Of a stretch of 64,000 nucleotides of DNA, positions 12,922-52,997 are shown piece after piece. Within the stretch, counting starts at the first letter, position 1; each line of letters starts with the position of its first letter. The notes below the pieces were generated by a model. It was given only the letters and a program-made list of their open reading frames with translations. It made no database searches and was not told the origin of the DNA. Source of the stretch: Apostichopus japonicus (taxonomy: Eukaryota; Echinodermata; Holothuroidea; Aspidochirotida; Stichopodidae). The stretch lies in NCBI RefSeq assembly GCF_037975245.1, contig NC_092571.1, forward strand, positions 16,115,917-16,179,916, written 5' to 3'. The position numbers and the translations under genes are program-made.

Positions 12922-14485
12922 ATGGCCTTCACGCTGGCTGTTCGGCTTGCCCAAAGGAATTTTACGAAGTCTTCGTTGAATGGTAAGACATCTAGATTCT
13001 GCCGAGAATGATTTGAGAATTAAAAGTCTCTTTTGCGACTGCTAAAATGAATAAGTTGCGGCTGTTCTTTAGTGTATCGCCCTCCCCTCTGTTAGTAACC
13101 TCAACATACTGTGACGGACGGCAATTGAAGAGAGGGGGGATCCATTCCTGTAGCCAAGAATTCGGAATTGGGTTTTATTACGCATGGTTTTGTCACAAAT
13201 GGGTGTGGACGCACTAGGCTGCGTAGCGGGAGGAAGGAGGGGGGGGGGGGGTTGGGCAGTTGGAAGGAATGCTCGAAGCATATTAATAAACGTTCGGCGG
13301 GTGGTTACAGGGACCGGCGGAATTCACCTAAACAGACTGCAAAGTTTATAGCAGACTGAGATTATGAAAATTTGTATTACGTGGGCCTAAGTGGTATAGA
13401 GATCTCCTACAGTTAAAATACTGACATTAATCAAGTTCTATGCAGCACTTTCTGAGTGTTTCTGATTGCAATTACTAATTTCTTTCTAGCTCAATACGAC
13501 TGATTACTATACACATGTTTCCATTTACGTAACAGTGAAATACCTTGTATGTAGTATATATACCGGTATACCAGATCAACTGTTTTAATTGTCCCTACGT
13601 CTTCTCTCTTCAGTGCCATTAGCAGCATATGGGACACATGGAGGAATACATAGAGACGCAGTGCACCCTCAGAAGTCACGTGTCAGTCAGTTTGAACCTC
13701 CTTACACCCTAGCAGACATCGGTTGCAAGGATAAAGTCGAGATCAATCCGAAGGAGACAAGGTCCCCCTCCGACCCCCAGGAAAATTCGCTACTAAATGG
13801 AATATTTGCGAACCTATCCTTATCGCCCGTTGAATTGCAGCTTACCAAAGAATATGTGCTGCCCTCTATAGTTCCTTTCTGGCAGTCAGAGAGAGTAATA
13901 TTGGATCCGCTTCCTCAAGCACAGATACGAGAGTGCCCGACCTACATAGAAAGAGAAATTATGGAACGCCCTTTGGGCATAAACGAGAAACGGATTGATA
14001 TACCTAGGTCAGAGCAGCCTATCGTGGAGAAGCAAGCTCGAAAGATCATGAAGATCCGTCGGAAAAAGATGAAGAAACATCAGTACCGAAAGTGGAAGAA
14101 GAGGAATAAATTCAAACTGAGGGCGATGTTCGCGAAACGGAGAAAAAAGAAGCAGAAGTTATGGGAGGAACATCTTGAGCAAAATAAATTCAAAGGTCTG
14201 ACGTCAGAGTATACAGATTGGTACCTGACCAAGAAGAAAGAGGAAGCGGCCATCTTTCTCAAGCATCTCGGCATCCACGTGGAAGAGAAAACACCAGAGA
14301 GCGTCGAGGAGAGAGAGAAACAACGAAAGTTAAAAGACAAGAAGACGACGGTGTATCGTGACCCTAAGGGGTCAATGAGGGTCATCCCCACACCCATCCT
14401 CCCGGACGGATCTAGCTTAAAGAAAGCTTTTGAAGAGGACGAAAGACTGGCAAAGGAAAAACGGATGAATGAAGCGAATGAGTAG
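12922..14485 (+). CDS. AURKAIP1: mitochondrial ribosomal protein mS38 (AURKAIP1 homologue)
   Basis: Two coding exons, 12922-12982 and 13614-14485, joined by a 631-bp GT-AG intron in phase 1, give 310 residues. Exon 1 encodes MAFTLAVRLAQRNFTKSSLN, with three basic and no acidic residues, as expected of a mitochondrial presequence. The diagnostic part is the basic core at residues 164-202 (KIMKIRRKKMKKHQYRKWKK and the adjoining KFKLRAMFAKRRKKK). This is the AURKAIP1/mS38 domain, which in other animals binds small-subunit rRNA; the family name comes from its reported Aurora-A interaction. Human AURKAIP1 is about 199 residues and ends soon after the core, whereas here about 108 residues follow, rich in Lys and Glu and including DPKGSMRVIPTPILPDG. 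The AG at 12897-12898 suggests the start codon lies near the beginning of a second exon after a 5'-UTR intron. Identification is firm; the extension is unexplained. Confidence 0.9.
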
Positions 14486-19530: not shown

Positions 19531-22500
19531 GGTTACCGCCGATGACGTCCTCAACTGCGTCTTCAACTGCACCGATCTTGCTGCCAATATCTATGTTAGA
19601 TGTTCCGCGAACACGACAGAAACCTCTCTCTTTGCCGGGAACAACTTCTTCAGATACACACGACAATCCTGATGACAAAAAAATGATCGATAAATACAAA
19701 AATTATCTTCACTGAGGCGACCAATGGCCATGGACTTAACTCCTTTTAAAGGGGATAGGTATACAGTGACGTAATAAGGACCTGGCTACAGGGCAACAGT
19801 GCAGCAACATAAATGGATACCCCAAAATTAGAGTCCACATTCACCCAAGCCCAATTATGGATTGGGGGTTAGGTGAGCAATTTATGATATTTTTGACGTT
19901 ACTTGTCATCGGGACTCCTTGTGGCTCCGGGCGACCGCATCGGTCTCACCGAGCTATTAGTTACGTCGCTGGGATATAGGTAGTCTCGTTGTGTGACGTC
20001 ACATATGTCTATTAATATGTGTTGTCAGAAATCAAATGATTCTATTACGCTGTGAACTATGGAACGCCGACTTGACCTGTCTGTGTTACATATCATTGTT
20101 TTCGTTCAGCAAAACCATAACATAAGCAAAATTTATTTCAGAAAAGGAAGACAGTTAAAAGAATAAAAACACCGACACAGAAAGAGCCTTTTCATGCATT
20201 AAATTTTTAAATCGATAATCTTTACAACAACCGTCTCCAATACACACTATAGTATTCATACTGTATCATTTGTATCGTTTGTTTGTCTAGAATTTGTGTA
20301 TACAACGTCTTTTACATAAATATGAACATTACTTTCGAATATTTTGGTATAGGGGCGGACAAAAGTCCACGAATCAGTTTTAACCAATCAACGTGCGAGT
20401 TGAACTACTAACTATATAGAAGATTTGAATATCCATTACCTGCTCTGCACATACAGTCATCTGCGCATTTCTGTCCTTCATCCTTTCTTGATTTCATGCA
20501 AAATTTGCTTCCTTTCTTTTCAACACAACAACTTCCTGCAAAATCAGCGAGAAAACCAAATGAAAAAGGATGATGGTGATAGGGACAATATATAGGAACA
20601 ATTGTTTATATGTAAATATTTTGTTCTTCCTTAATTAGATATGAATATGCATATAACTGACTTGTGTGATTATTTATATAATTATGTTTTTGCACGAGTG
20701 AAATATAAACAGACTTTGGCAAACAACCTCTTTCGTTTAATGGCAATAGAAAAAAAAATGTTTTTTCAATCTACGTGATAATACATTATTTTCAAAATTA
20801 CGTTAAGTAATCAGGATAGCATGCTTCGAGAATGTTCGTTTAATACGAAAATGCACTATCGCGTACGCAATCAATCAATCAAAAGCCTACATTCATAGCC
20901 TAACACCATCACCTCCTGCTGAGAAAACACTTATGTCGTTCAGATGTTACCATGACGACACAATGGTTCTCCTTTTGTTTAGTCTCGAGCATAATGTCAT
21001 CAGAGATACCTATGGAGTGATTCAGTTCGGATTTCACTTCAACTGATATATTTATGTACATGATGAGCTGTTACATATCCAAGCTAAATTAGAACAGTGA
21101 TCTATTTTAATAAATTATGTAGACCAAACTGGGAGGAATAGATGGGGGTGACAGAAAGATTAAAAAAAGGTTGAAGGCGATTGCATGGTTCGTTAAAGTT
21201 TTAGTTTTTTTCTTCAGAATTTACCTTGTCCGCAATCATTATTACTTTCACACGTTATATGTTCCTTTTGACGCCTGTGTGCCTTGTTTGCCTTCTTTTG
21301 TTTTACTTTTTCCAGTTTTCTTTGATGTCGCCGTTCAGCTTTGTTTGCGATAGCCTGTCCATTCACAGCGTCTCCGGCATTGTTACTGTCTGTTGCTGTT
21401 CCTTCTACTGGGGGCAGAGGGTTGGGAATAGGGGCACCATGCCTCTCCTCGACAATGTCGTCAAAACTGACGATTTCGGTGCCATCATCTGGAGTAAGAA
21501 AAACAACAACAACAACAACAATAATACCCTGATTTTATAGATGAATGAAGACACTTCATTAGTATAAAGTACAATGTAAACGTTAACGCCGACAGTTGGA
21601 CTAACCCAGGGTTGTCCAACCTTTTGCAGAGGAGGGCCACGTGGAATGATTATGATGAAGGAGGGGGCCGCATGAACCCTACGTTCGATTTTTTGCCCAA
21701 AGCCCAAGGCAACAAAATGTGAGCACTGCGCGCGGAGCTCACTGATTTATTATCCTTCCTGATAAAGCAGATGAATAAAGTCCAGCCGCCCCCCCCCCCA
21801 CTCCGCTGAGAGAGTGTCACACAAATTGACCTGTATGCAGTTTTTTGGACCCAGACGGTTCGAATGATTGATTATATAGCTTCAAATTGTTATCAATAAA
21901 TCTGCTCACTAAAATTTCGCACCGTAGAGCATCTCTTGCGGGCCGGACGCAACCCTGCGGCGGGCCGGACTGTGGCCCGCGGGCCGTAGGTTGGACAACC
22001 CTGGACTAACCGCTATAGAAATGACTAATCGAAACTTATATAGTGATGAGTGTACGATAGTATAGTATGTAAATATATAAATATGTTCAAGGTGTAAACA
22101 GGTTATCTCAGATGCTCGCAAACTGGATCAAGGGGTCAACAGGTTATCTCAAATGGTGATGGAAACTTGGCCATATTATCAAAAAGATATTTCACAGTAT
22201 ATAAACAAAGTCGTGTAACTCGGAACAACTGGTTAAAGGGATTTCTGTGCTAGCTCAAGGTTGTTAAAATATGTTTATATTTTACATAGGACGACTATTC
22301 TGTATTCTTTCTGGATAGTGAAACATTTTGGTAAAAATTCTATACTGTAAAATCCTTATGAGTGAATGACATGGTTGATGCCCACAAGGTATTTCTACAA
22401 AGCTTTTCTGGTTGTCACTTAATTCTTGGACAATTTAACTCACTTGCAGTTGCTCTACATTAGTCCGAAAGATACAGTATTTTGAATTCTGAGCGCACTA

Positions 22501-24437
22501 AATGGCAAGCAATCACAGACTAATTGGCTTTCTGTGTTTTCATAGTACAGATTAGGAACCGTAACAGTAATATAAAACAAGAGCTTGGGCACAATTTAGA
22601 TGTTAATTTGGATTTCATGGTAGGGCACTAGTGTCTCTAACAAAGAAACAATGGATCGGGAGAATCGCACCGAAATATACGGTACCAATTTATCTGCAGT
22701 GACAATGTACCGTATCTGTAATGCATAAAACAATATTCCTACTATACGGCTTGTAGAAAGAAGTAAAGTATCTACACCTCTCGGCGCTGTAAAATATCTC
22801 TGCATATAGTATAGTACGATATGCGTACTGCGCGTTGGTTGTATCTCTGCCAAACCATGCGCGGTCGATTCGTGCTTTTCTTTAAATAATTGAGGGCGCC
22901 CCGTGATTTGAGATTCATTAGAGTATATGCTACGTTGAAACAAACCGCCGATTGTTTAAATCATCTTGCGTTAATAGTGATCAATAATATTCTCTATAAA
23001 TGTAGCGGAAATTAAGCATGGCTAGAACATTTCACACTACTTTCCTATCGTACTACATTAAGTACCGTAAGGGTTAAATTTATCACATTTCTCAGTGTAT
23101 GTTAATGAACCATACACCGTACAGCCTTGCCAAATTGGAGGTCATACATTAGAAGTTGCGCATTCGTTTGATGACGGATAAGTTTACTTTTACTGTAAAA
23201 TCCAATCATTGCAGTCATGCAGACCCAAAGGTTCTGACTCTATGTTACACTCTTTTTATTTTAAATCGGAAAACTATACTTGAACAAATTCGAAAAACAC
23301 AGGATACACTGATATACCATACACTCCAATGAACGTTTAGATAACGCACCTTCTTCCCCCTGCCTCCCCCCTCTTTACCCTCCCTAAACCCACCCCCACC
23401 CCCGCCAACGTGGGGGTCATATTTTGACACTCGTCCTTTAGTTATACCTTGTTGTTGTTGGTTGTGCTTGGCGGCCTTACGTTCCGCCTTTTTCGTCGCC
23501 TTCTTTGCTGCTTTCTTCGCCGCCTTGTCCCCGTGTTTATGCATTTTGCGTTCCTCCTTTCGAAGTCTCTTTTTCTCATCTTTCCTCAGAGCCTTGGCTT
23601 CGGCTTTCTTTGCTGCTTTTTTTGCGGCCTTTTTCGCTTCTTTCTTCTGTGTTTTACCAAGTTTACCATTATGAAGCCCGGATGGTACAATATCCGTATC
23701 TATTTCTGTGTTATCGGGCGTCTCTACGCCTTGATTGACAACCGGAATCTCCGTAGGATCAGCGACGGCGGGTTCGGCGACATCTTGTGTAGTAAATCAA
23801 ATGAATATTCATGAGCAAAATGGCCAAAAAAAGAGAGTACATGTTCATTAATTATCAATCAATTTTGATACGACATGATGAAAATGGCAGAATGTATATA
23901 AACATGGAGACCATGAACGATCTCCTTTGATTAAATAGTACAAACCATCAATCGGAATGTAACGAGTTCGTAAGATTTCAAAACGACGGAAAGATGATTT
24001 CACAAGGCTTGGCTAAGTAATTTGCAAACCAGTTGTACGCCATACCAACACTGGAAAGTATTTCAAGTAAGCGGAAACAAATCATCAGTTGTGTTTCATT
24101 TAATAAGTTAACCTGTAGTGCTGTCACAATTCCCTCTCCAGCCTATCACCCCTCCCCCTCCTCGAAACATTATATAGGCAAACAAACATGTCCTCCAGTT
24201 ACCACAAAACGTATCGAGTTTGGGTATTTACGAGCTTACCTGTCCCCACACAACCCTTCCATAAAAATACAGAATGCTCCAACCAAGCACGATCATTGAT
24301 TATTTACCTGTTTGTTGTCGCTTCTTTCCTTTGCCTTTCTTATCCCTCTTCGCATCTTGTGCTGTTTGTGCTCCTTGGCTCAATAGAGCGACTGTTGCTA
24401 AGACTAGCAGGAGCAGAAGTCCTTTGGTAAACTTCAT
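19526..24437 (-). CDS. secreted Lys/Ala-rich protein with ten-cysteine colipase/DKK/prokineticin-like domain
   Basis: Five exons on the minus strand: 24437-24308, 23783-23448, 21488-21225, 20535-20440 and 19668-19526. All four introns are GT-AG and in phase 1; the exons total 969 nt, 322 residues plus stop. Residues 1-23 form a signal peptide (MKFTKGLLLLLVLATVALLS), followed by basic KRDKKGKGKKR. Exon 2 has an acidic stretch, then a Lys/Ala-rich region (KKAAKKAAKKAEAKA and again near its end). Exon 3 ends in a second basic segment. The C-terminal domain has ten cysteines at 235, 241, 246, 247, 256, 267, 271, 273, 279 and 293. The spacing C-x5-C-x4-CC-x8-C-x10-C-x3-C-x1-C-x5-C-x13-C matches the colipase fold shared by Dickkopf C2 domains and prokineticins. 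I infer an extracellular ligand or modulator; the receptor is unknown. I do not recognise an orthologue with this Lys/Ala-rich N-terminal part. Confidence 0.8.
19764..19971. mobile_element. possible hAT-like MITE in the last intron
   Basis: The ends CAGTGACGTAA and TTACGTCGCTG form near-perfect inverted repeats (10 of 11) about 208 bp apart, and CAGTG...CGTAA is a common hAT-type terminus. It lies in intron 4 of the ten-cysteine gene. Immediate 8-bp flanks do not match (TAGGTATA against GGATATAG), so the call rests on the inverted repeats alone. Confidence 0.4.
21607..22003. mobile_element. hAT (Charlie-like) MITE with 8-bp target duplication
   Basis: Termini CAGGGTTGTCCAACCT and AGGTTGGACAACCCTG are perfect 16-bp inverted repeats. 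They are flanked by a perfect 8-bp duplication, GACTAACC, at 21599-21606 and 22004-22011. The CAGGG...CAACCT end followed by a GGCCCGCGGGCC-rich subterminal region resembles Charlie-type hAT elements. The 397-bp body has no transposase coding, so it is non-autonomous. It sits in intron 2 of the ten-cysteine gene and does not touch an exon. Confidence 0.9.
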
Positions 24438-29200: not shown

Positions 29201-31070
29201 GGGGGGGTAAGGGGGCTTATAAATAATTATAAAGCTTATTATATAGGATCCTCTGATCGTAAAGGTTGATGCTATGACCTACAATTATTTCAAATATACA
29301 TAGATAAAATATTATACCGTAAATCCTCGTCGGGGTGTACACGCGTGTATCTATAACTATATATAATTATATCCAAACAGCGTAGGAGTTGATACAGATT
29401 TACCTGCTGCATTTTGCTGTCTATATCTTGAATTTGTGCAATGCAATACAATGCAATGCAATTTACACATACGACACAACAAATAATGTACGGTATTCCT
29501 CAAAACCGTATACTGTGTTGTAACCAATATCGTATGCTATCATCAGATTATAACTCGACCACCAGACGGGTTCTGTATCAGGGTTCACTGAGCTTTAGCA
29601 ATTCCTCCCAATAGAATGAGGGAGGATCAGCCCCCCCCCCCACCTCCCATCTCCACTGGCAGACAAAGTATAACAACAAAAAATATGCCCGGTACAATCT
29701 AAACAGTCGAAAGTTCTTTAGGATTTTTTGAAATGTTGCAAAATATAGCACCATTTATGCATCTAAGCACCCTCCATGTCACCAAAACCCTTCAAATGGG
29801 GGAGGGGCCACCCCCTTCCCTTGAAAACATAACATTTAACCCCATTCACCCTTCCCCAGTACAAAAATGGTGGTTGCGCCCCTCCAAGACTTAGAAATAT
29901 AATATAGGCCTAGATGTTTTTTCTTCCTCATATACCTATCCACATTGTGAAAGGTAAAAGAAATCATAAGTTAAACGTTGCACAATTCTAAATCAAACAC
30001 GTCTAAAACGGAGAAGAAATCCTAGTTTCTCAAAATGTGTACACTAAAACGATTTCGTTGACTGTTGTGGCTTTGCTAAAGGCTCACTTGTAACGAAATG
30101 GAAGTCATCATACAGTATTCCTATACACAACAGTATAACCGAAGTGAATCTCTGGTGAGAAGAGGAATATTATTGAAAACAAATCAATCACTTGTGGAAG
30201 GATAGTATATTTGCTCTTCTTTGTTCAAATAATTTGTTTGCTGTAGGGTTGGTTCGTTATTGCCGGGGAATGTATTCCCGAAGTGCAAGGTTGCCATAGG
30301 AAACAAAGCAGTTCTAATAGATTGCTGTAGAATATGATGAAAGTATCACTTCCGCGAATGAGGTGAAATTGGCTATACTTTCTTTTTCTATCATTTTTTT
30401 TGGAAGAACAGTTGCTAAAGCGGAGTGGGCTGGTGGATGTAAGGGTAATGGGGTGGGGAAGGGGGTGAACGCATCCTTTATAAGATAGACAATGCACTGT
30501 TATTCATTCGAAATATATATAATTCGCAGGCTGATTGCCTACATAGCCTACATAATCCTCCTCAATGCTTGAAAAATAAACTGTAATGAAATGCGACCAC
30601 TTTTGAAAACGTTTGACAGTTTTTAAGGATTAGAATTTGGTCACTAGACGTAAAATAATAATTCAGCTGATTTTTTGGAACCAACCCTCCAGTCTCATTC
30701 AGACCTACTTCTAACATTGTTGCTCCAAATCGTGAATAGCTGAACATTAACAAACACTTATGAAAGTGAAAAAAATATCTTTAGGCAATATTTCACACTT
30801 TTCTTTCAAAATATCTAGCCTAGCAAAGGTTTCGGGGAAAGGCGGTTTTAATATATACAAAATATATATCCACATGATACAAGATCAAACATTATATTAA
30901 CAACAAACCTTTCCTTTATGTTTGACAACCCGAATCAATATCTTTTATTATGTGTAGGATTTTCAAAGACTTTTGAGCCAAATTCAAGTACAGTCAACTT
31001 TAGACTATAACCTATGTGCAACATTTATGCGGTTTGCCACGAGAATATACACAATAGGGTATATTTAAAT
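26257..31070. other. gene-free stretch
   Basis: No gene is supportable. It contains a GTC/ATC microsatellite (about 27.0-27.13 kb), a short (GACA)n tract near 28.39 kb and oligo-G/C runs near 29.20 and 29.63 kb. The G/C-flanked repeat that ends near 29.89 kb is related to the one at 5.84 kb. A 27357-27623 ORF has an acceptor-like upstream CAG but no partner exon. Confidence 0.45.
26997..27130. repeat. GTC/ATC microsatellite
   Basis: A degenerate run of GTC, ATC and GTCATC triplets over about 130 bases. Its translation on the minus strand is a string of Asp residues, which is an artefact of the triplet repeat and not a gene. Confidence 0.85.
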
Positions 31071-41785: not shown

Positions 41786-43430
41786 TATATCATATCTGAA
41801 CGACATTTTAGGCCCTACTTTTCCATTATAATAGCCTTATTCCTCCCTCCCCCAAACCTCCCCACATACATGCACGCTCAGTGTTGATAGGTACAAACAG
41901 GGGGAGGGGGATCACTGATTCACGACCGTGCTCGTTATCCGTAATAATAAACCGGTTTTTCGTATACACATACAATTACTTTTGTAACTTCAGTTGTGCC
42001 TACATAGAGTATAAGCAACCAGACAATATCTTTCTCAAGAAACAAAAATATCAAATGTTATTGGCCCAAGTTTGGCATATTTTACTAAGAAATTTGTTTC
42101 TCTTTCTCCCCATGGTTATACTTAGTATGCACACATGATCTTTGTAGAAATATTCACTCAACTGCAGTCTCTGTAGCCCTAGTCTGCAGCAACAACATTG
42201 CTAAATAGCAGAACCCAACATGGTCCTACATTATCGCCGCTTTCACCCTTTGACGGTTACACGGTAATATCATAATATATTTTTTTCTCTCTGTAATAAA
42301 CAGTTTATGCAGTTACAATTGCGATAGCAACAACGTCACAAATAAAACAACACAGAATCAACAGAATATTAAAGATATACCCTTTTTATATTTAAGGCCA
42401 ACCATAGATATATAAATAGATATAGATGTACGAAAAGATATGTGTATGTAACATGAAACATTATTTATAATTTTTAAATATTATTTAGTATTTTTTTACA
42501 TATGTATTTTTTATTTCCCGATATATAGGCTATGTGTACGTATAAGATTATAACTAGGGCTTCTGTGGCGGTGTGCAAACATTTGGACCAAAGATATACT
42601 GACTATAAACAATGCAATTATACTGAGTTCTCCTAGCAGTTATATGAACTCACATGCTGAGCTGACCTATACAATTTTCATTTCGGTATAGAGCGGATAA
42701 AAGAAGCGAAAAACTACTCACAATCTCAGTTTATGATCGCAATTTATGATCGCAAAACACTTACCTTGTACCAGTTAGATCAAGCGCACGTCTCCGGTTC
42801 CTAATGTGGCCAAAGATATACTGTATACCACGTAGCTGGACTGGAGAAATTACAACTAACCATCGGTTTATGGTCTCCAATATAGCCAGGTAAGTCCTAC
42901 ACAAATTATCAACCACTGGGTTATTAACATATTATACAACCAGGATGGAGTAGCCGACAGTGAATAAGGGTGGCGCTACAGTCGTTTTTAGAAAATCTCG
43001 GTTTTTAAAACGGTGTATGTATAGTTATACGGAACTGTACGTAAACAAATCCTTTATGCTGCACAAACGCAACTATGTTGAAGAGTCACTGGACTCCACA
43101 TGTTTTTAATACCCCCATCCGCTCCCCTTCCCCCTCCTCCAAACGCAAAACATTTCTACTATTCCGATGATGTATATATTCTGATGATGCTTTTTGGCGA
43201 TGGGGTGGAAGGAGGGGAGGGGGAGGTGGCGCGTAGGGGATACGGGGAACCTCTACTTACTAATATCAAGTGAGCAAATTCTTCTATTAATAGGTAGAGT
43301 ATACAAAAGCAAACAGGGGATTGATTGGGAAGGAGACGGGTTTATGAGGGTGGGGTGGGAGGGGGTTGCAAAAGGACTAAGTAAAGAAGAGACTGAAGTA
43401 AAACCGTGATATTTTTTTTTAACTGTTCCA
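41786..43430. other. gene-free stretch downstream of the LU gene
   Basis: No gene recognised. A G-rich stretch near 43.2-43.37 kb creates a Gly/Trp-rich ORF. The far end of the LU gene's 3' UTR probably stops within the last few hundred bases to the right. Confidence 0.45.
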
Positions 43431-43585: not shown

Positions 43586-46500
43586 TCACAATACTATGCT
43601 AAGTGCGACGTAAATTATTGAGAGCAGAAGTGTTGGTGATGCTACAGCTGTGGTCACTGCGGCGTTATCTTCATCATCTTCATCTTCTTTCATGGTTAAA
43701 TCCCAGTTCATCTTAGGGTCCCACAAATTTTCCTCTGGTAATGGAATCCTGTGAATGTGTCCCACACCGTTACATCCGTCCATGTCTGATGGGTCAAGAC
43801 AACAAAAGAAACACCAAGCCTCCGCGTCCACGGTATGGTTTAATCCAGTATACATAGGGCCCATACATTGAGCGTTGAGTGGGTCGAGAATGCTGTCCCA
43901 CATATTATCATAGCACTCATCCTGCAAAAGAAGAAGAAGAAGAATAAATGAATTACAAAGGGCATTTACTGAATCGATTAAGATCTTACCATATTTATAC
44001 CTGAACATTGCTGCTACGAACGGGATCCACTGTATATACCATGTCCTCCCACATTATAACCTACGACAACTATTCTGTATAGGTAGCTATCAAACTATTG
44101 AATGGACCATTAATTGTCAAACAGTACAGCAGCAATTCTACATAGGCAACTATAAAGCTATTGTATTGACTACGTTGCCCCACAGTACAGCAGCAATTCT
44201 GTATTAGGCAGCCATAAAAATATTGAATGGACTATACGCTGTCAAACAGCACAGCAGCGATGTTGAACAGGTCACGAGAATCTGCTTCCTGGGGCACGTT
44301 TCTTTAACTGGGGGGGGAGGGGGGCTTATATAGGTTTTGGGATGTACACTCCAAACCGATACACCAGGACTTTAACCCTTCCAAACATATTACTCCATTC
44401 AAAACTATATAGAATGATCTGTAATAAATATAAAATACTTAGTTTTAGTAGAAACGACTTTTCCTTCAAAAGGATGAAATTGTATAAGGTACTCTGTGTA
44501 TAGATCTAACATAATGACATAGAAGTTCGGGTAAAGATTATGAGGGAAGCGAGATTTTCACTATCGAAACTCACCGCGTCGATGCAGCTTTTTCTTATCA
44601 AGTATCCATCCCCGGTCGGGTTCATTTTAAACTCGGACTTGCACTGTGGGAATGGCATTTCACAAACCTGCATTGTTCCGTTTTCACCGAGCTGTATCGA
44701 AACAAAAGGGAAAGCAATAGTCGTCGCGTGAAACAATTGATTTGTGACAATTAATTAATTAACTTGGTAATATATATTGCTGATATTATGTGATACTAAA
44801 TAAAACATCCCCTAATGCATGAATGTTATACACGGAACCACTCTTACCATTAACGAAATTATTCGTGGCAATGAAAATTCCACCGCCCCCCCCCCTCCCC
44901 GAACCTCTCATCTTTTTTAAGTTGGTTAATTGCCTAGCCATGTCAGTAAGACATTTCACGTATCATACGTGCATATATGGTATGAATATTTCAGTCTATA
45001 TTTGCGTTATAAAATGTGTTTAGTCGTGGGGCGAATATATGAGAGAAATCTTCATTCCCTGTTAAAGCCACCCCACCCCCACCCATCCCCCATCCCTATA
45101 CAGAGAAACACACATGCAAGGAAACAATTAATGTCTACGCCAAATAAGTAGGGGAAAAACTCACTCTCTCTCCAATGCAATCTTCGTTGCTTACAGCGTC
45201 CGTACAGGTGTAGCATCGGATTACCTTTGGGTCCGAGGGTCCAATGTCTGAATAAAGGCAGTGAACATATATTTTATTTGATTTCTCAGGTTTAGTAAAG
45301 AATAGCTTAGAAATATAAAATGGCTAGTGTATAATATATACTCAAATGAACCATTCTGCCAATTACCGGTGGTTGAGCAACATTCTCATGTCACTGTTGC
45401 ACGGTTCTATACAATAGATGTATATATCTCCATATATATATATACACAGACACACATTATCATCAACAAAAATACTCAAAATTGGTCCAAAATGGCATCT
45501 TCTGGTTATTATTCCCGTTTAAAAATCCTGGGACATATTTCTTTGAATTTGGAAACAATATCACATCACATATCACGTCAAGGCGCCTTCGTTTTCTTTT
45601 CAAGCTAAAAAGAGTTGTATACACTTTGAGAAATCATACAATGAACTGCGTCTGGATGGTATTGTACTTTTCATTGTGATCTGTCATGTGTTATCAAAGG
45701 GGAAAAACAAAGGGACAATGATAAAATTGAAATATATGCCTATCCGTCGTCAGATGAGAATCCATCGAATTGTCAGTTAGAGGGCTATATTTTCATAAAA
45801 CGATCGTGCCACCCCCTCCCCTATTCCTCGGCAAATTCTTCGTAAAAACAAACCAACAAACTACAACAACTCCAGGGGCTCTTTTGTGCAATACTCATTT
45901 TGTACACCTACGGTGGTTAATCTTTGAGTACCTAACCCTTTGTGCTTCTTTATACAAATGTCTTGTGGCTATAAATTGTGGGCTTCTACATAACGTACGT
46001 AAAGAGGAGAGTCATTATAGACCTCGGATTTCTATACCTCTTACCATAGGCCTCAATGTAATAATGTTAAAATGCAAATAACACATTGGTGAGTACCTTA
46101 TTACTATTATTATGTTTTTGTGTCTTCGTTTCGAATATACCAACTTCAAAGGAAACGCCAAGTTACGTTACCTTTCAAATAAAATACAAGGCGCAACCTC
46201 AGACAAAGACAATTATTAGAGTTAATTCAGTGCCAACGAAAAAGGGAAATTAAACTGTATTTCAATATCTTAACGCCGATTGTACAATTTATTAAGAAAA
46301 CGAGATTACAGCTTCTACTTACCGATTGCGTCGGTCGAAGGAGCACCTGTATTCACATCAGCTTAAGAATAAATAAGAAAACAATAAAATGTAAAACGAA
46401 ACCTCATGCATTATTCAGCAAAGATGAGAAATATCGGACAACAACAAGAAAAACACCATCTTAAATAAATCATTCAAAATAATTTGCTGATTTCCTTGGC

Positions 46501-49500
46501 TTAAAGATGCTATTATAAGAAAAACCTTATTACGAAAATACAGCCAAAATGAAGTATTGAACATCGCATATTTGGAAAAGCATTTTCGCGAGTGAGGTGT
46601 GGGCAAAAGAGAATGTAGAGTATTATAGAGGTGAGTGAAGTGAAGTGAAGGGGTGGGGTGGGGTGGGGTGGCGTGATGTGGGACGTGATGGAAATGAGGA
46701 AAATATGTGGGAAAGAGAAGAGAAAGGAGGAGGAGGAAGATAATGATATAGGGGAAACAATAGGGTAGAAGAATATACTTCAGATTAGTATTCCCTCATT
46801 TTTTTCTGATTAATGAATTATCTTACTTCCTCCTTTTGAAGGTTGACAAGGTCAAAGTATATAAGAATAATACGAATACTACTTTAGCCCGTTTGTAGTA
46901 GCTGCATATGGGAGAGCAGGGGTGCTGTGGCGGGGTGGGGTGGGGAGTGGGTTACCGAGGATAAGATGCGGGGAAAAGAATTATTATATTTCGATCTATA
47001 TTGATTTAGGAATGATCTTATTTTTTAACATGGAGATGTATGTTTACTAAATAAAATGCAAACTAGACATAGAAACTAATGATCAAGTATAATACTTAAT
47101 TGAAGAAGAAGTAAGAATGTTTTTTCTTTAATACAATTTTAGACTAATTGGAGCTATGCAAGGTTAAAGTAAGACAAAGGCATGTAAAATATGTTATCTC
47201 CCACTTACCTGTTGCGTTGGATCCAGGGTTTTCGGTATTCAAAGCATCTTAAAAATGAATATGTGAAACAACGAGAGAATAAATACAGAGTAATAAGACA
47301 TATGTTGTCATAACTTCATTTAACATGGAGGTGTATTTTTAATAAATTAAATAAAAACTATACATAGAAACTACTGATCAAGTAAAATACTTAATTGGAG
47401 AAGTAAGAAGGTTTTTTAATATACAATTTTAGACTAATTGGAGCTATGCAAGGCTAAAGTAAGACAAAGGCATGTAAAATATGTTATCTCCCACTTACCT
47501 GTTGCGTTGGATCCAGGGTTTTCGGTATTCAAAGCATCTTAAAAATGAATATGTGAAACAACGAGAGAATAAATACAGAGTAATAAGACATATGTTGTCA
47601 TAACGTCATTTAACATGGAGATGTATTTTTAATAAATTAAATAAAAACTAGACATATAAACTACTGATCAAGTCAAATAATTAATTGAAGAAATAAGAAT
47701 GATTTTGTTTAACAGTTTTAGACTAATTGGAGCTAGATGCAGGGTTAAAATAAAGACAAAGGCAAGTACAATATGTTATCTCCCACTTACCTGTTGCGTT
47801 GGATCCAGGGTTTTCGGTAGTCACAGCATCTTTAAAATGAATATGTGAAATAATGATAGCACATATGCTACAAAATAGTTAGACTTATATGTTGTCATAA
47901 CGTCATTTAACATGTTATGTATTTTTAATAAATAAATGAAAACTAGACAGAAACTAATGATCGAGTCAAATAATTATTGAAGAAGATGTAAGAATGATTT
48001 GTTTTTAAACTTCAGACTGATTGGAGCTAAATGCAGGGTTAAAATAAAGGCAAAGGCAAGTAAAATATGTTATCTCCCACTTACCTGTTGCGTCGGATCC
48101 AGGGTTTTCGGTAGTCACAGCATCTTTAAAATGAATATTTGAAACAATGAGAGAATAGCTACAAAATAATTAGACTTATATGTTGTCATAACGTCATTTA
48201 ACATGGAGATGTATTTTTTAATATATAAAATTTAAACTAGACATATAAACTACTGATCAAGTAAAATAATTAATTGAAGAAGATGTAAGAATGGTTTGTT
48301 TAACAATTTTAGACTGATTGGAGCTAGATGCAGGGTTAAAATAAAGACAAAGGCAAGTAAAATATGTTATCTCCCACTTACCTGATGCGTCGGTCACAGG
48401 GTTTTCGGTAGTCACAGCATCTTAATAAATGAATATGTGAAATAATGAGAGCACATATGCTACAAAATAGTTAGACTTATATGTTGTCATAACGTCATTT
48501 AACTTGGAGATGTATTTTTAATAAATAATATAAAAACTAGAGATAGAAACTTATGATCAAATAAAATAGTTAATTCAAGAGGAAGAAGTAAAAATGATTT
48601 GTTTAACAATTTTAGACTAATTTGAGCTATATGGAAAGTTAAAGTAAGACAAAGGCAAGAAAATATGCTATTTCCCACTTACCTGATGTTGAGTCGGTAA
48701 CAGGGTTTTCGGTAGTCACAGCAGCTTAATAAATGGATATGTGAGAGAATAACCACAAAGAAATTAGACTTATATGATCATAGGCGTACGGGACCATTTC
48801 AGTTTAGGGGGGCAGAACTTTTTGTGCCCGAAAGTTCCCGTGACACTATCTAAGCGGAGCGCCACCATCGGTTGGCGCGTAGCGTACAAGAAAATTTTGG
48901 GCACACAATGCCTCTCAGATTGCCGGAAACGGCCCTTCTGAGGCAAGTTGCATCTAAACATTCTTTATTTTATAATCTCACGTTTTAGAAATTTAAAAAA
49001 TTTGGTAAATTAGAAGAAGAAAAAATGGTAACATCACTTTGAAGGGGAAAAATTGGACAGTATATTTTTTATGCTCTTATTTAGTTACCTTATTTATTAT
49101 TTGAACACAGTACCCAGCTACCTCCAGGAAAACATACATTGTTCAACGACACGTAGGCGGGATAATGTCGCTGTGTCGGGTGAGACTGTATGATTTGTCT
49201 CACAAGAAAAGTATGAAATATAACAAAGAATATGATAAACCTGTACTTCTAGGCTTGAAGGCACCCCCCCCCACCATCCATGGAAAAGAAAATGTTTCTT
49301 ATATACACTCATGTTGGGGATGTCCAGGTCAAGGGCGGCGGAAGCACTTTTAATCTGGGGGGCACCGACATCAAAGGGCACTTTGCAGAAATTCGATTGG
49401 ACTGATGCAGCCTTATACTTAGTACCCTTTATAACTCTTATTGTATTATCTTATTTGTGTATACACAACATCCCATCAACGCCCCCCCCCCCCCCCAAAG

Positions 49501-52500
49501 GAAAATATGCATACTAGCACTGCAATATCCAATGTGCAAATTGGGAAACAAGGAACAAGTTTTCTTTTGAGACAAAATGAGGTGAAATCATGCTAGTTGC
49601 TAATGTAGGAATCTTCCGAATTAGAGTTTTTTTCTTGTTAAAATCTTAACACATTGTTTCCATTCGAAATAGCTTTGAATTTGACCCACAGAAATTCATT
49701 AAAAGTCACGGGCTTAGCCAGGATTTGCAAAGTTGTATGCACGACTATCTGAGCGGAGCGCCACCATCGGTTGGCGCGGAGCGTACTAGAAAATTTTTGG
49801 TTTTACAAACCCCTCAGATGGCCGGAAACGGCCCTTCCCGAGTGTTCATTCTGGTTCCCTGGCCTCTTGCTAACTTGAGGCACCTCAATTTTTATGTAGA
49901 AAAAAGGCACATTTTTAACCTGAGGAAAAGTGGGGGGGGGGGGGGGGGAACACGCGCCCCCTGTGCTCCCCCGGTTCCGCCGCCCTTGGTCCAGGTATAC
50001 AATTGACTAGTTAGAAAAATAATGATCGTGCAAAAAGCGTGGTAGCCCAGAAGAACTGCGCTTACGGTGGTGTTACACGGAAATATTCGGGCATCATGAT
50101 GCTAAATAAAGAAAATCATGGAACTGTCGGGCAAAAATTTGAAAAAGATTCGGGCAAGCTACTGCATATTTATATATATATATATTTCCAGATGACAAGA
50201 AATTCGGGCAAAAGTCCTGAAAAATTCGGGCAGCCTAAAATATATATATATATTATATATTTTTTTTCCTCCTCTTAGGCTGCCCGAATTTTTCAGGACT
50301 TTTGCCCGAATTTCTTGTCCTCTGGAAATTTGGGGGGGGGGGGGGGCAGTCTTCCCCCCTGCCCCCCCCCCCCGCCTCGTACGCCTATGTATATGATGTC
50401 ATATAACGTCATTTAACATGGAGATGTATTTTTAATAAATAAAATAAAAACTAGAGATAGAAACTTATGATCGAGTAAGATAATTAATTGAAGAAGAACT
50501 AAGAATGTATCTTTTACAACCTTAGACTAATTATAGAGTTATATGGAAAGTTAAAGTAAGACATAGGCAAGAAAATATGCTATCTCCCACTTACCTGATG
50601 TTGAGTCGGTAACAGGGTTTTCGGTAGTAGCAGCAGCTTAATAAATGAATATGTTAAACAATGAGAGAAAAACTACAAAGTAATTAGACTTATATGATGT
50701 CATATAACGTCATTTCACATGGAGATGTATTTTTAATAAATAAAATAAAAACTAGACATAGAAACTTATGTTCAACTAAAATAGTTAATTGAAGAAGAAG
50801 AAGTAAAAATGATTTTGTTGAACAATTTTAGACTAATTGGAAAGTTAAAGTATATATGGAAAGTTAAAATAAAACAAAGGCAAGAAAATATGTTATTTCC
50901 CACTTACCTGATGTTGAGTCGGTAACAGGGTTTTCGGTAGTAGCTTAATAAATGAATATGTGAAACAATGAGAGAATAACTACAAAGTAATTATATCTAT
51001 ATGATGTTATAACTTAAATGTATTTTTAATAAATGAAACAAAACTAGACAGAGGAACTAGTTATCGATTAATATAATCAATTGAAGAAGAAGTAAGAATG
51101 AAAGTTTTACAAATAGGTCTAGTTTTACAAGTAACATGTGAAAGTAACTTGAGAGAATAATAACCGTACAAAGTAAGATAATATGACGTCATAACTTCAT
51201 TTTACACAGGGAGATGAATTGTTTTGTTTTTAAGATGTACGTATTTATAACTACGTTTTTATAAAGTATCACACCGAACAACAACTAGACAAGGATTAAA
51301 ACTGACGGTACATAACAGATACGATGGATGGGTGGATGGATGAAGGGAGCGGAAGGGGGGGGGGGCATCTCTCTGTCTGCAACGAATCGATAGAGATGAT
51401 TTAATTTTACAATTGGCTTTATACAAGGTTAACGCATCATAAAGACAAAAAAATATATAAACTTCAAGAACAGTTGGAGGTTTAAATGACCCAAGTAATA
51501 TATACCTAAAAATCACAGACCATTTTCACTACTGAGAAAGACGTGTAACGTTGTATTACTGAAGTATGTTATCGACTACTAGATGCAGAGAAAAAAACTC
51601 ATGGCGCTATATCACAAGACAAAAAAATAACAAGACCAAACAGTAAAATACACCCCGCCCACCCCAAACTAATTAAACAAAAACAAAGAACGAGACACCC
51701 CACCCCAACACACACAAAAATAACAACAAAGAACAATACACCCCTCCCCCCCCCCCCACCCCAACACACACGCACGAAAAAGGACGAACAGTCCATAGTA
51801 CAGGTGTGTGTTTGTAAAGATCGAGAATGAAACTATACTCAAAGCAACGAAAAATGTCCCTATCTTCGCGCGTACAATGAAGTTTATTGTATAATTCCTC
51901 TAAATTGGTGGAATAATCTACGAGAGTGTCTCTAAATTATAAAAACAAATTGATGTTTGCTTGTTTGACTGTTGCAATTAAAATTGATGTTTCCTTGTTT
52001 TCACTGTGGTAATTTTGGCTGTTTTTGTATAGATTAAACTTGCGATTGAAAGAGTGGTCACAAGTTTGATTTGCTAACACCGCAACTATACAGTGTCTAT
52101 CAGTGCAGCTATACATTATGTATAACACAGTACGCGAATTTCTTGTCATAGTAATGCTTCTCAAAAAAAAAAAAAAAAAAAAACAGTTCTGTTGAAACCA
52201 CGGACCACCCACTGGCGTTAGCTTACATTGTTTTCTATTCGATAATTAGGTTATTTATAGCTACCAATGATTGTCATCTTAAATTTGGGTCAAGATGTTG
52301 AGACAGATTTTCCCCTTTTGATTTTTGTTACAGTTTCCGTCTTCCACTGTGGTAATTGTCACATCGATTGTCTTTAACTAGACATATAGGCCTAACAATA
52401 GTGTAAAATTTGGGCAAAAGTACAACCCATTTCCACTTTGTCTGTCTGTATAGGCTAGATGAAATCAATTACGGAAGCTTTTGTAACTGAAACCATAAAC

Positions 52501-52997
52501 TTTAGTCCAATTAACGGACTGAGAATAACATAGGCTAATAATAATATACTTACCGGCAAGGGTGGTGCTGACTGTAGTTGCGGCAGCATCAGTCGTCGTG
52601 ACTTTAGTACAGAAGAAATGAATAAACATTAAAAAACATAAATCATGTACAGTCCACCAAAAAGGCATAAATATTAATTTATTCCAGAATTCGATATTTA
52701 CCTAACCAGATTCGGATATTGATGAGATGTACGATATATATGACCTTTAGGCTAAGCATAATCCTGCACCGAAAAATAAAATATATACAGGCGTATAATA
52801 GGCCTAACCTTTCATGACACTAGACTGTATAGCCTATAGGCCTAGGTATGTAGGCCTAAGCCTATATCATTATGCAATATTTTCCTGGGTTCATCTCTTT
52901 AAATGAAGTAATGATGATGAAATAAGACAATTATGAACTTACTCGTTGCAATCAGAATCACTAACAGCGGCAAGACCGGCCACCGAGCTTTCATCAT
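43586..52997 (-). CDS. GPI-anchored Ly6/uPAR (LU) domain protein with mini-exon-encoded Thr-rich stalk
   Basis: Fourteen exons on the minus strand: 52997-52943, 52601-52554, 50943-50908, 50636-50595, 48724-48683, 48420-48382, 48123-48085, 47829-47791, 47537-47499, 47247-47209, 46361-46323, 45247-45165, 44691-44575, 43921-43586. They total 993 nt, 330 residues. Exon 1 is a signal peptide (MMKARWPVLPLLVILIAT). Exons 2-11 (48, 36, 42, 42, then six of 39 nt), all phase 1/1, give a stalk of repeats like DAVTTENPVTDAS; three copies carry NAT glycosylation sites. Exons 12-14 encode the LU three-finger domain, opening CYTC and closing WCFFCC...GCN (residues 164-269, twelve cysteines). An acidic KEDEDDED stretch and a hydrophobic tail (LLLSIIYVALSIVL) follow, as in GPI-anchor signals. 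I infer a surface protein held away from the membrane by an O-glycosylated stalk. The ligand is unknown, and more mini-exons may exist in the 1.6 kb intron 2. Confidence 0.85.
44075..44265. repeat. minisatellite in the last LU intron
   Basis: Three imperfect tandem units of about 60-65 bp built around ACAGTACAGCAGCAATTCT, then a GGCAACTATAAA-like stretch and TATTGAATGGAC. It lies in intron 13 of the LU gene and affects no exon. Confidence 0.75.
49330..49988. mobile_element. nested hAT-type MITE
   Basis: Perfect 14-bp inverted ends CAAGGGCGGCGGAA and TTCCGCCGCCCTTG are flanked by the perfect 8-bp duplication GTCCAGGT (49322-49329 and 49989-49996). It lies wholly inside the element at 48779-50389 and so is the younger insertion. 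Its module at about 49741-49850 (GAGCGGAGCGCCACCATCGG onwards) is shared with the host element and, reversed, with the copy at 1121-1411. Confidence 0.92.
50185..50328. repeat. 53-bp inverted repeat (foldback hairpin)
   Basis: Arms 50185-50237 and 50276-50328 are reverse complements with a single mismatch, separated by a 38-bp AT-rich loop. Each arm contains the word ATTCGGGCA twice. The same word is scattered in the preceding 120 bases. The hairpin lies between the nested element and the right end of the outer element. Confidence 0.9.
51231..52553. other. LU intron 2, remainder
   Basis: No further mini-exon with the conserved CTTAC donor and TTAAG acceptor is visible here. The stretch contains G and C runs near 51.36 and 51.74 kb and an A run near 52.17 kb. 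Confidence 0.5.

Follow-up and report, generated by a model that had tools for sequence, protein, structure and literature searches.

Can the N-terminal tail of a receptor-like surface protein be built from a small exon that was multiplied in tandem together with its intron? This question is raised by a gene on the minus strand of a 64,000-nt stretch of the Apostichopus japonicus genome (NC_092571.1, positions 16,115,917 to 16,179,916), which is referred to as the window and to which all coordinates below refer. An original prediction had described the gene as encoding an LU-type surface protein with symmetric mini-exons, and this description held at the level of the sequence. The gene model, 52997-43586 on the minus strand, began with a signal-peptide exon, continued with ten small exons and closed with three LU exons. 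Of the small exons, eight (M1 to M8) were tandem copies of a unit consisting of an exon and an intron of roughly 255 nt, and this array is beyond chance. The most probable explanation is a protein-coding gene with a tandem mini-exon array that was generated and altered by the genetic mechanism proposed below.

Joined together, the 14 exons formed one open frame of 330 codons. The coding sequence comprised 993 nt including the stop and ended at 43586. Exon E1 (52943-52997) encoded the signal peptide (MMKARWPVLPLLVILIAT), as judged by eye, and ended in phase 1 with the donor GTAAGT. The ten consecutive small exons measured 48, 36, 42 and 42 nt, followed by six of 39 nt, and contributed 402 of the 993 coding nucleotides. 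All were multiples of three and in phase 1/1, so that the predicted series of ten symmetric exons of 36-48 nt was re-derived within the single frame. The first of them, E2 (52554-52601, 48 nt), was not detectably homologous to the tandem units. It was followed by M1 (50908-50943, 36 nt, ATTENPVTDSTS), M2 (50595-50636, 42 nt, AAATTENPVTDSTS), M3 (48683-48724, 42 nt, AAVTTENPVTDSTS), M4 (48382-48420, 39 nt, DAVTTENPVTDAS) and M5 (48085-48123, 39 nt, DAVTTENPGSDAT). M6 (47791-47829, DAVTTENPGSNAT), M7 (47499-47537, DALNTENPGSNAT) and M8 (47209-47247, DALNTENPGSNAT), each of 39 nt, carried an N-glycosylation sequon. The last small exon was E11 (46323-46361, 39 nt). The LU domain was entered at phase 1, as in typical LU genes, but was encoded by three exons with two internal phase-0 introns (43586-45247). 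E12 (45165-45247, phase 1 to 0) held the start of the domain (CYTC...) and E13 (44575-44691) was in phase 0/0. E14 (43586-43921) contained the end of the domain (CFFCC...CN), an acidic linker, a hydrophobic C-terminus that was read by eye as a glycosylphosphatidylinositol (GPI) signal, and the stop codon. The intron between E13 and E14 harboured a 63-bp tandem repeat in three copies (44072-44258).

The start-to-start steps from M1 to M8 were 307, 1912, 304, 297, 294, 292 and 290 bp. Tandem Repeats Finder reported a period of 290 with 5.8 copies and a score of 2332 at 47024-48744, the portion of the array downstream of an insertion. This insertion accounted for the long step. It was transposon-like, comprised 1611 bp (48779-50389) and was located in the M2-M3 intron, with an 8-bp target duplication, ATCATATA, and 12-bp inverted ends, CATAGGCGTACG. 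After subtraction of the insertion and one target copy, the M2-M3 step was 293 bp. The period-290 array and this restored step were in line with the earlier claim that exon and intron were amplified together. The claimed unit size of about 290-313 bp was correct for the steps of 290-307 bp; the 1912-bp step had not been mentioned, and the value of 313 corresponds to the end-to-end distance between M1 and M2. Among neighbours, M7 and M8 were the closest, with 95% identity across an ungapped 290-nt unit. The introns I1-I7 differed pairwise by 0.080-0.179 and carried distinct indels.

Elements of the hAT superfamily are characterised by an 8-bp target duplication, short terminal inverted repeats and, in full copies, a transposase. 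By its duplication and inverted ends, the insertion is presumably a hAT-like candidate. Within it, a 57-bp repeat in two copies and a 55-bp inverted pair were found, and part of it matched positions 1215-1332 at 70%.

The splice sites of the array were strictly conserved. Three acceptor and eight donor columns were invariant in all eight copies (0/84 and 0/224 pairwise differences), while the intron flanks showed 0.140 (upstream) and 0.154 (downstream) differences per site. Outside the splice sites, 61% of 245 columns were invariant among I1-I7. Random intron stretches of eight and three columns were both invariant in about 0.8% of placements. Exon lengths differed by 6 and 3 nt only; among the intron gaps, 3 of 23 distinct intervals were multiples of three, where the underlying events are not independent. 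The ten small exons all had AAG as acceptor and GTAAGT as donor. In the LU exons, the acceptor was CAG in all three and the donor GTGAGT in the first two. Within the exons, 25 of 33 ungapped columns were invariant across the eight copies, with a longest run of 14. M1 to M3 were much closer to one another in the exon than in the intron, with 0/36 differences in the exon and 0.109 in the intron for M1 and M3. The reverse was observed for other pairs, such as M2 and M7, with 0.256 in the exon and 0.156 in the intron. Taken together, the invariant splice columns, the length steps, the common phase and the continuity with the LU frame support, without proving, that the units are exons.

Traces of the array's history were present in its introns. 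A partial ninth unit at 51133-51223 on the minus strand lacked an exon and matched the 3' part of the unit intron with scores of 58 (M2 unit) and 55 (M5 unit); the maxima of 200 shuffles each were 30 and 31, respectively. About 31 nt past it, the homology to the upstream intron of M1 began (51101), with neither an exon nor a donor in between. This unit may represent either the loss of an exon, which the gene would have survived in frame, or a partial duplication in which an exon was never present. Over the first two thirds of intron I3, the nearest intron was I1 (0.08 and 0.07), and over the last third it was I5 (0.06, with 0.11 to I1). The difference between I4 and I6 was 0.03 in the first third and 0.10 in the last, and that between I6 and I7 was 0.12 and 0.02, respectively. 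These mosaic-looking introns and the partial unit point to exchange between misaligned units. E11 agreed with M4 at 25 of 39 positions, a value equalled by 10 of 5000 codon shuffles, and is possibly a diverged relative of the mini-exons. E2 was rejected as a member of the array, with 1640 of 5000 codon shuffles equalling its similarity and flanks scoring at shuffle level. The motif TAGGCCTA had 11 occurrences, compared with 0.75 expected by base composition, an excess that may be reminiscent of introns in echinoderms. No relatives of the array were found in a scan of a viral contig collection.

The encoded protein contained 134 residues between the signal peptide and the LU domain, among them 34 Thr, 23 Ala, 14 Asn, 13 Ser, 13 Asp, 9 Pro and 8 Glu. 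Each module added 12-14 residues. This Thr/Ser-rich tail contained 21 acidic residues, no Lys and no Arg. It is probably glycosylated and, as gauged by eye from its composition, probably disordered. The sequon in each of M6-M8 was NAT; M1-M5 lacked one, and two further sequons were located in the LU region. The LU region was matched by the Pfam families PF16975 (Lypd6, E 5.5e-4) and PF00087 (E 0.0054). Three sequence matches in the PDB, none of them significant, were to LYPD6 (E 1.3 and E 2.2) and LYPD1 (E 2.4). The region contained 12 Cys, with a CYTC start and a CC-x8-CN end. Seven of these fell within the weak LYPD6 alignment (E 1.3) and were all paired with Cys of LYPD6; the other five were located outside it. 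At the C-terminus, the hydrophobic run followed an acidic stretch. From these features, the protein is probably GPI-anchored with a single, LYPD6-like LU domain. As the GPI-like end is separated from the repeats by the LU domain, the repeats would form a free N-terminal tail and not the stalk of the original prediction. A cysteine-pattern scan of the window gave three matches, namely this gene and the segments 29415-29447 (plus strand) and 42312-42332 (minus strand), both without LU context by eye, in a search blind to LU genes whose ending differs or whose motif is split.

Several observations weigh against a coding array in an LU gene. Both Pfam matches fell under the curated cut-offs. The flank test for E11 was weak, as an unrelated flank, that of E14 with its TTC run, likewise outscored all 200 shuffles when compared with one of the two unit copies. 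AAG, the ending of all ten small-exon acceptors, is a less favoured splice acceptor, which makes partial skipping of modules plausible. In M1, M2, M4, M5 and M6, five of the eight copies, a TAG 35-39 nt upstream of the acceptor could act as a competing acceptor. It was rejected as a conserved alternative because it was missing in three of eight copies, M3, M7 and M8. With AAG acceptors and these upstream TAGs, faithful inclusion of the mini-exons is not assured. Exon substitutions amounted to 0.129 per site, near the intron rate. In the mini-exons, the nonsynonymous difference (pN, 0.156) exceeded the synonymous difference (pS, 0.087), and most tail residues showed no sign of conservation. The seven introns contained an invariant run of 13 columns, compared with 14 in the eight exon copies. 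The exon run is thus no evidence by itself, and the 14-column core was dropped as proof of selection. Similar rates in exon and intron, an excess of pN and matching invariant runs are also what a non-coding 290-bp satellite would show that had grown within an intron and looked exon-like by accident. The messenger RNA would then join E1 or E2 to E11 or E12, and since these four exons all meet at phase 1, such an array-free transcript would stay in frame as well. A satellite does not account for splice sites that are identical in eight of eight copies, for length differences in multiples of three only, for every copy being open in the same phase as the copies next to it or for the resemblance of E11, outside the array, to a mini-exon. 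Retained splice sites and frame, combined with an exon rate close to the intron rate and pN above pS, argue for constraint on splicing and frame and not on most tail residues. The satellite is considered unlikely.

A multiplication of one unit during assembly is very unlikely. Such arrays are generally hard to assemble from short reads, but the divergence of I1-I7, their distinct indels and the splitting of one intron by the insertion contradict an artefact; for the M7/M8 pair alone, with its 95% identity, the argument from intron divergence is weaker. Modules of 13 residues that are almost identical and follow a signal peptide also recall precursors of small excised peptides, such as neuropeptide precursors. 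This reading was rejected as extremely improbable because the 134 residues without Lys or Arg provide no dibasic or furin-type sites. A realistic possibility is that the array is spliced and that the tail acts as a passive spacer or mucin-like filler with neutrally drifting copy number. This would share the gene model preferred here and deny only the tuning role. It agrees with the replacement-rich divergence and the low-complexity composition, whereas the preservation of frame and splice sites in all eight copies speaks against it.

For the preferred explanation, a coding gene with a tandem mini-exon array, the following mechanism is proposed. A phase-1/1 mini-exon between the signal peptide and the LU domain would have been duplicated in tandem with its intron, which left eight copies with an exon and a partial unit without one. 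Whole modules would be added or removed in frame by exchange between intron copies, through unequal crossing-over or gene conversion, and the symmetric phases would let splicing skip modules. Modular gain and loss are a reasonable reading of the array, its partial unit and its mosaic introns. The claim that units can be gained or lost without loss of frame was likewise supported at the sequence level; the unit at 51133-51223 fits exon loss, with partial duplication as the alternative. The length of the tail may also vary at present. The tail might act as a charged, glycosylated bristle whose length tunes the encounter of the LU domain with a partner at the membrane, a tentative guess drawn from the acidic tail of GPIHBP1. 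A working length rheostat, in which unit number varies among individuals or close species, modules are skipped by tissue and the acidic, glycosylated tail is tuned in 13-residue steps, is rather doubtful. As M6-M8 each carry a sequon and M1-M5 none, how many N-glycans are attached would also depend on how many units of the 3' type are present. If spliced as modelled, the gene would clearly illustrate, in a natural case, how a receptor-like domain acquires a disordered extension. Exon and intron would have been copied together as a cassette whose phase fits the junction of signal peptide and LU domain, and the exon-less unit and mosaic introns would be traces of gain, loss and exchange.

Elsewhere in the window, Cys-rich frames at 20411-21534 on the minus strand weakly resembled the Dickkopf N-terminal domain (E 0.012, below the cut-off, for a sequence assembled by eye from two pieces). 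The gene concerned may also include a Lys/Ala-rich frame at 23248-23796 on the same strand. On the plus strand, an open frame of 298 codons (13589-14482) had a sub-cutoff match to COX24_C (E 0.0013).

Typical LU genes have three exons (PMC6600238, PMC4839075), with a signal-peptide exon followed by a two-exon LU set that is generally flanked by phase-1 introns (PMC6600238), yet human members reach nine exons (PMC4839075). LU domains possess ten plesiotypic cysteines with the disulfides 1-5, 2-3, 4-6, 7-8 and 9-10 (PMC6600238). The same review, from 2019, states that an additional exon coding for a disordered N-terminal segment occurs in no more than two human LU proteins, GPIHBP1 and SP-10. 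Mammalian GPIHBP1 is a GPI-anchored protein with a single LU domain, and its extra exon before the LU set encodes an acidic, disordered N-terminus (PMC6600238). This extension holds 21 acidic residues within 26 in humans, varies in length among species and speeds partner association more than 250-fold (PMC6600238). The gene described here shares this architecture, with an acidic N-terminus and ten phase-1/1 exons before the LU domain; the likeness would be functional, and common descent is not claimed. GPIHBP1 differs in having one extra exon in place of ten and a far denser acidic charge, and the available sections of the review mention no repeated Thr/Ser modules for it. SP-10 (ACRV1) likewise carries a disordered segment before the LU domain, the length of which is varied by alternative splicing of exon 2 (PMC6600238). 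It is secreted, and its single extra exon with internal splice choices is not an exon-plus-intron array. In a starfish, 48 LU proteins are reported, among them Asterias LyAr4 with 67% similarity to human Lypd6; the main text of this study does not use the word 'exon' (PMC11595613). Starfish LU proteins have also been considered as surface markers (PMC13409769). LYPD6 has an extra disulfide in loop 3, which would fit the 12 Cys observed here, and a repeat-built N-terminal tail is mentioned neither for LYPD6 nor for LyAr4 in the accessible parts of the sources (PMC6600238, PMC11595613). LYPD6 and LyAr4 represent the nearest LU type by the Pfam and PDB searches, both with weak matches.

Amplified and very short exons are known from other genes. 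Tandemly repeated 81-base exons are reportedly the subject of a 1988 paper, going by its title. In micro-exon genes (MEGs), micro-exons by definition make up most of the coding sequence; the small exons here account for 402 of 993 nt, and the gene is not counted among them. The Schistosoma MEGs encode secreted proteins and contain numerous very short exons, of which most measure 15 bp and most have lengths divisible by three (PMC10526429), and some members contain Thr/Pro-rich, O-glycosylated repeats (PMC3723592). They share very short exons with the present gene and differ in lacking an LU domain and in having shorter exons, and the sections of these sources that were available do not describe an exon-plus-intron array. 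In teleost Piccolo b, one exon was amplified 8 to 16 times, likely via unequal crossovers (PMC3484663). What is amplified there codes for a zinc-finger region in a synaptic protein, not for a 13-residue module.

The statement of the original prediction that no LU protein of this architecture had been described was too broad with respect to N-terminal extensions, which are known from GPIHBP1 and SP-10 (PMC6600238). For an array placed before the LU domain, and for an LU/Ly6 protein with repeated mini-exons in general, no counterpart was found among the openly licensed papers listed, as judged by titles and the openings of abstracts, which falls short of showing that none has been published. N-terminal extensions of LU proteins and the amplification of single exons are each known, and their combination was not encountered among these papers. 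The role of N-terminal tails on LU proteins has so far been discussed for GPIHBP1 and SP-10 (PMC6600238); if spliced as modelled, the array described here would provide a length series for this question.

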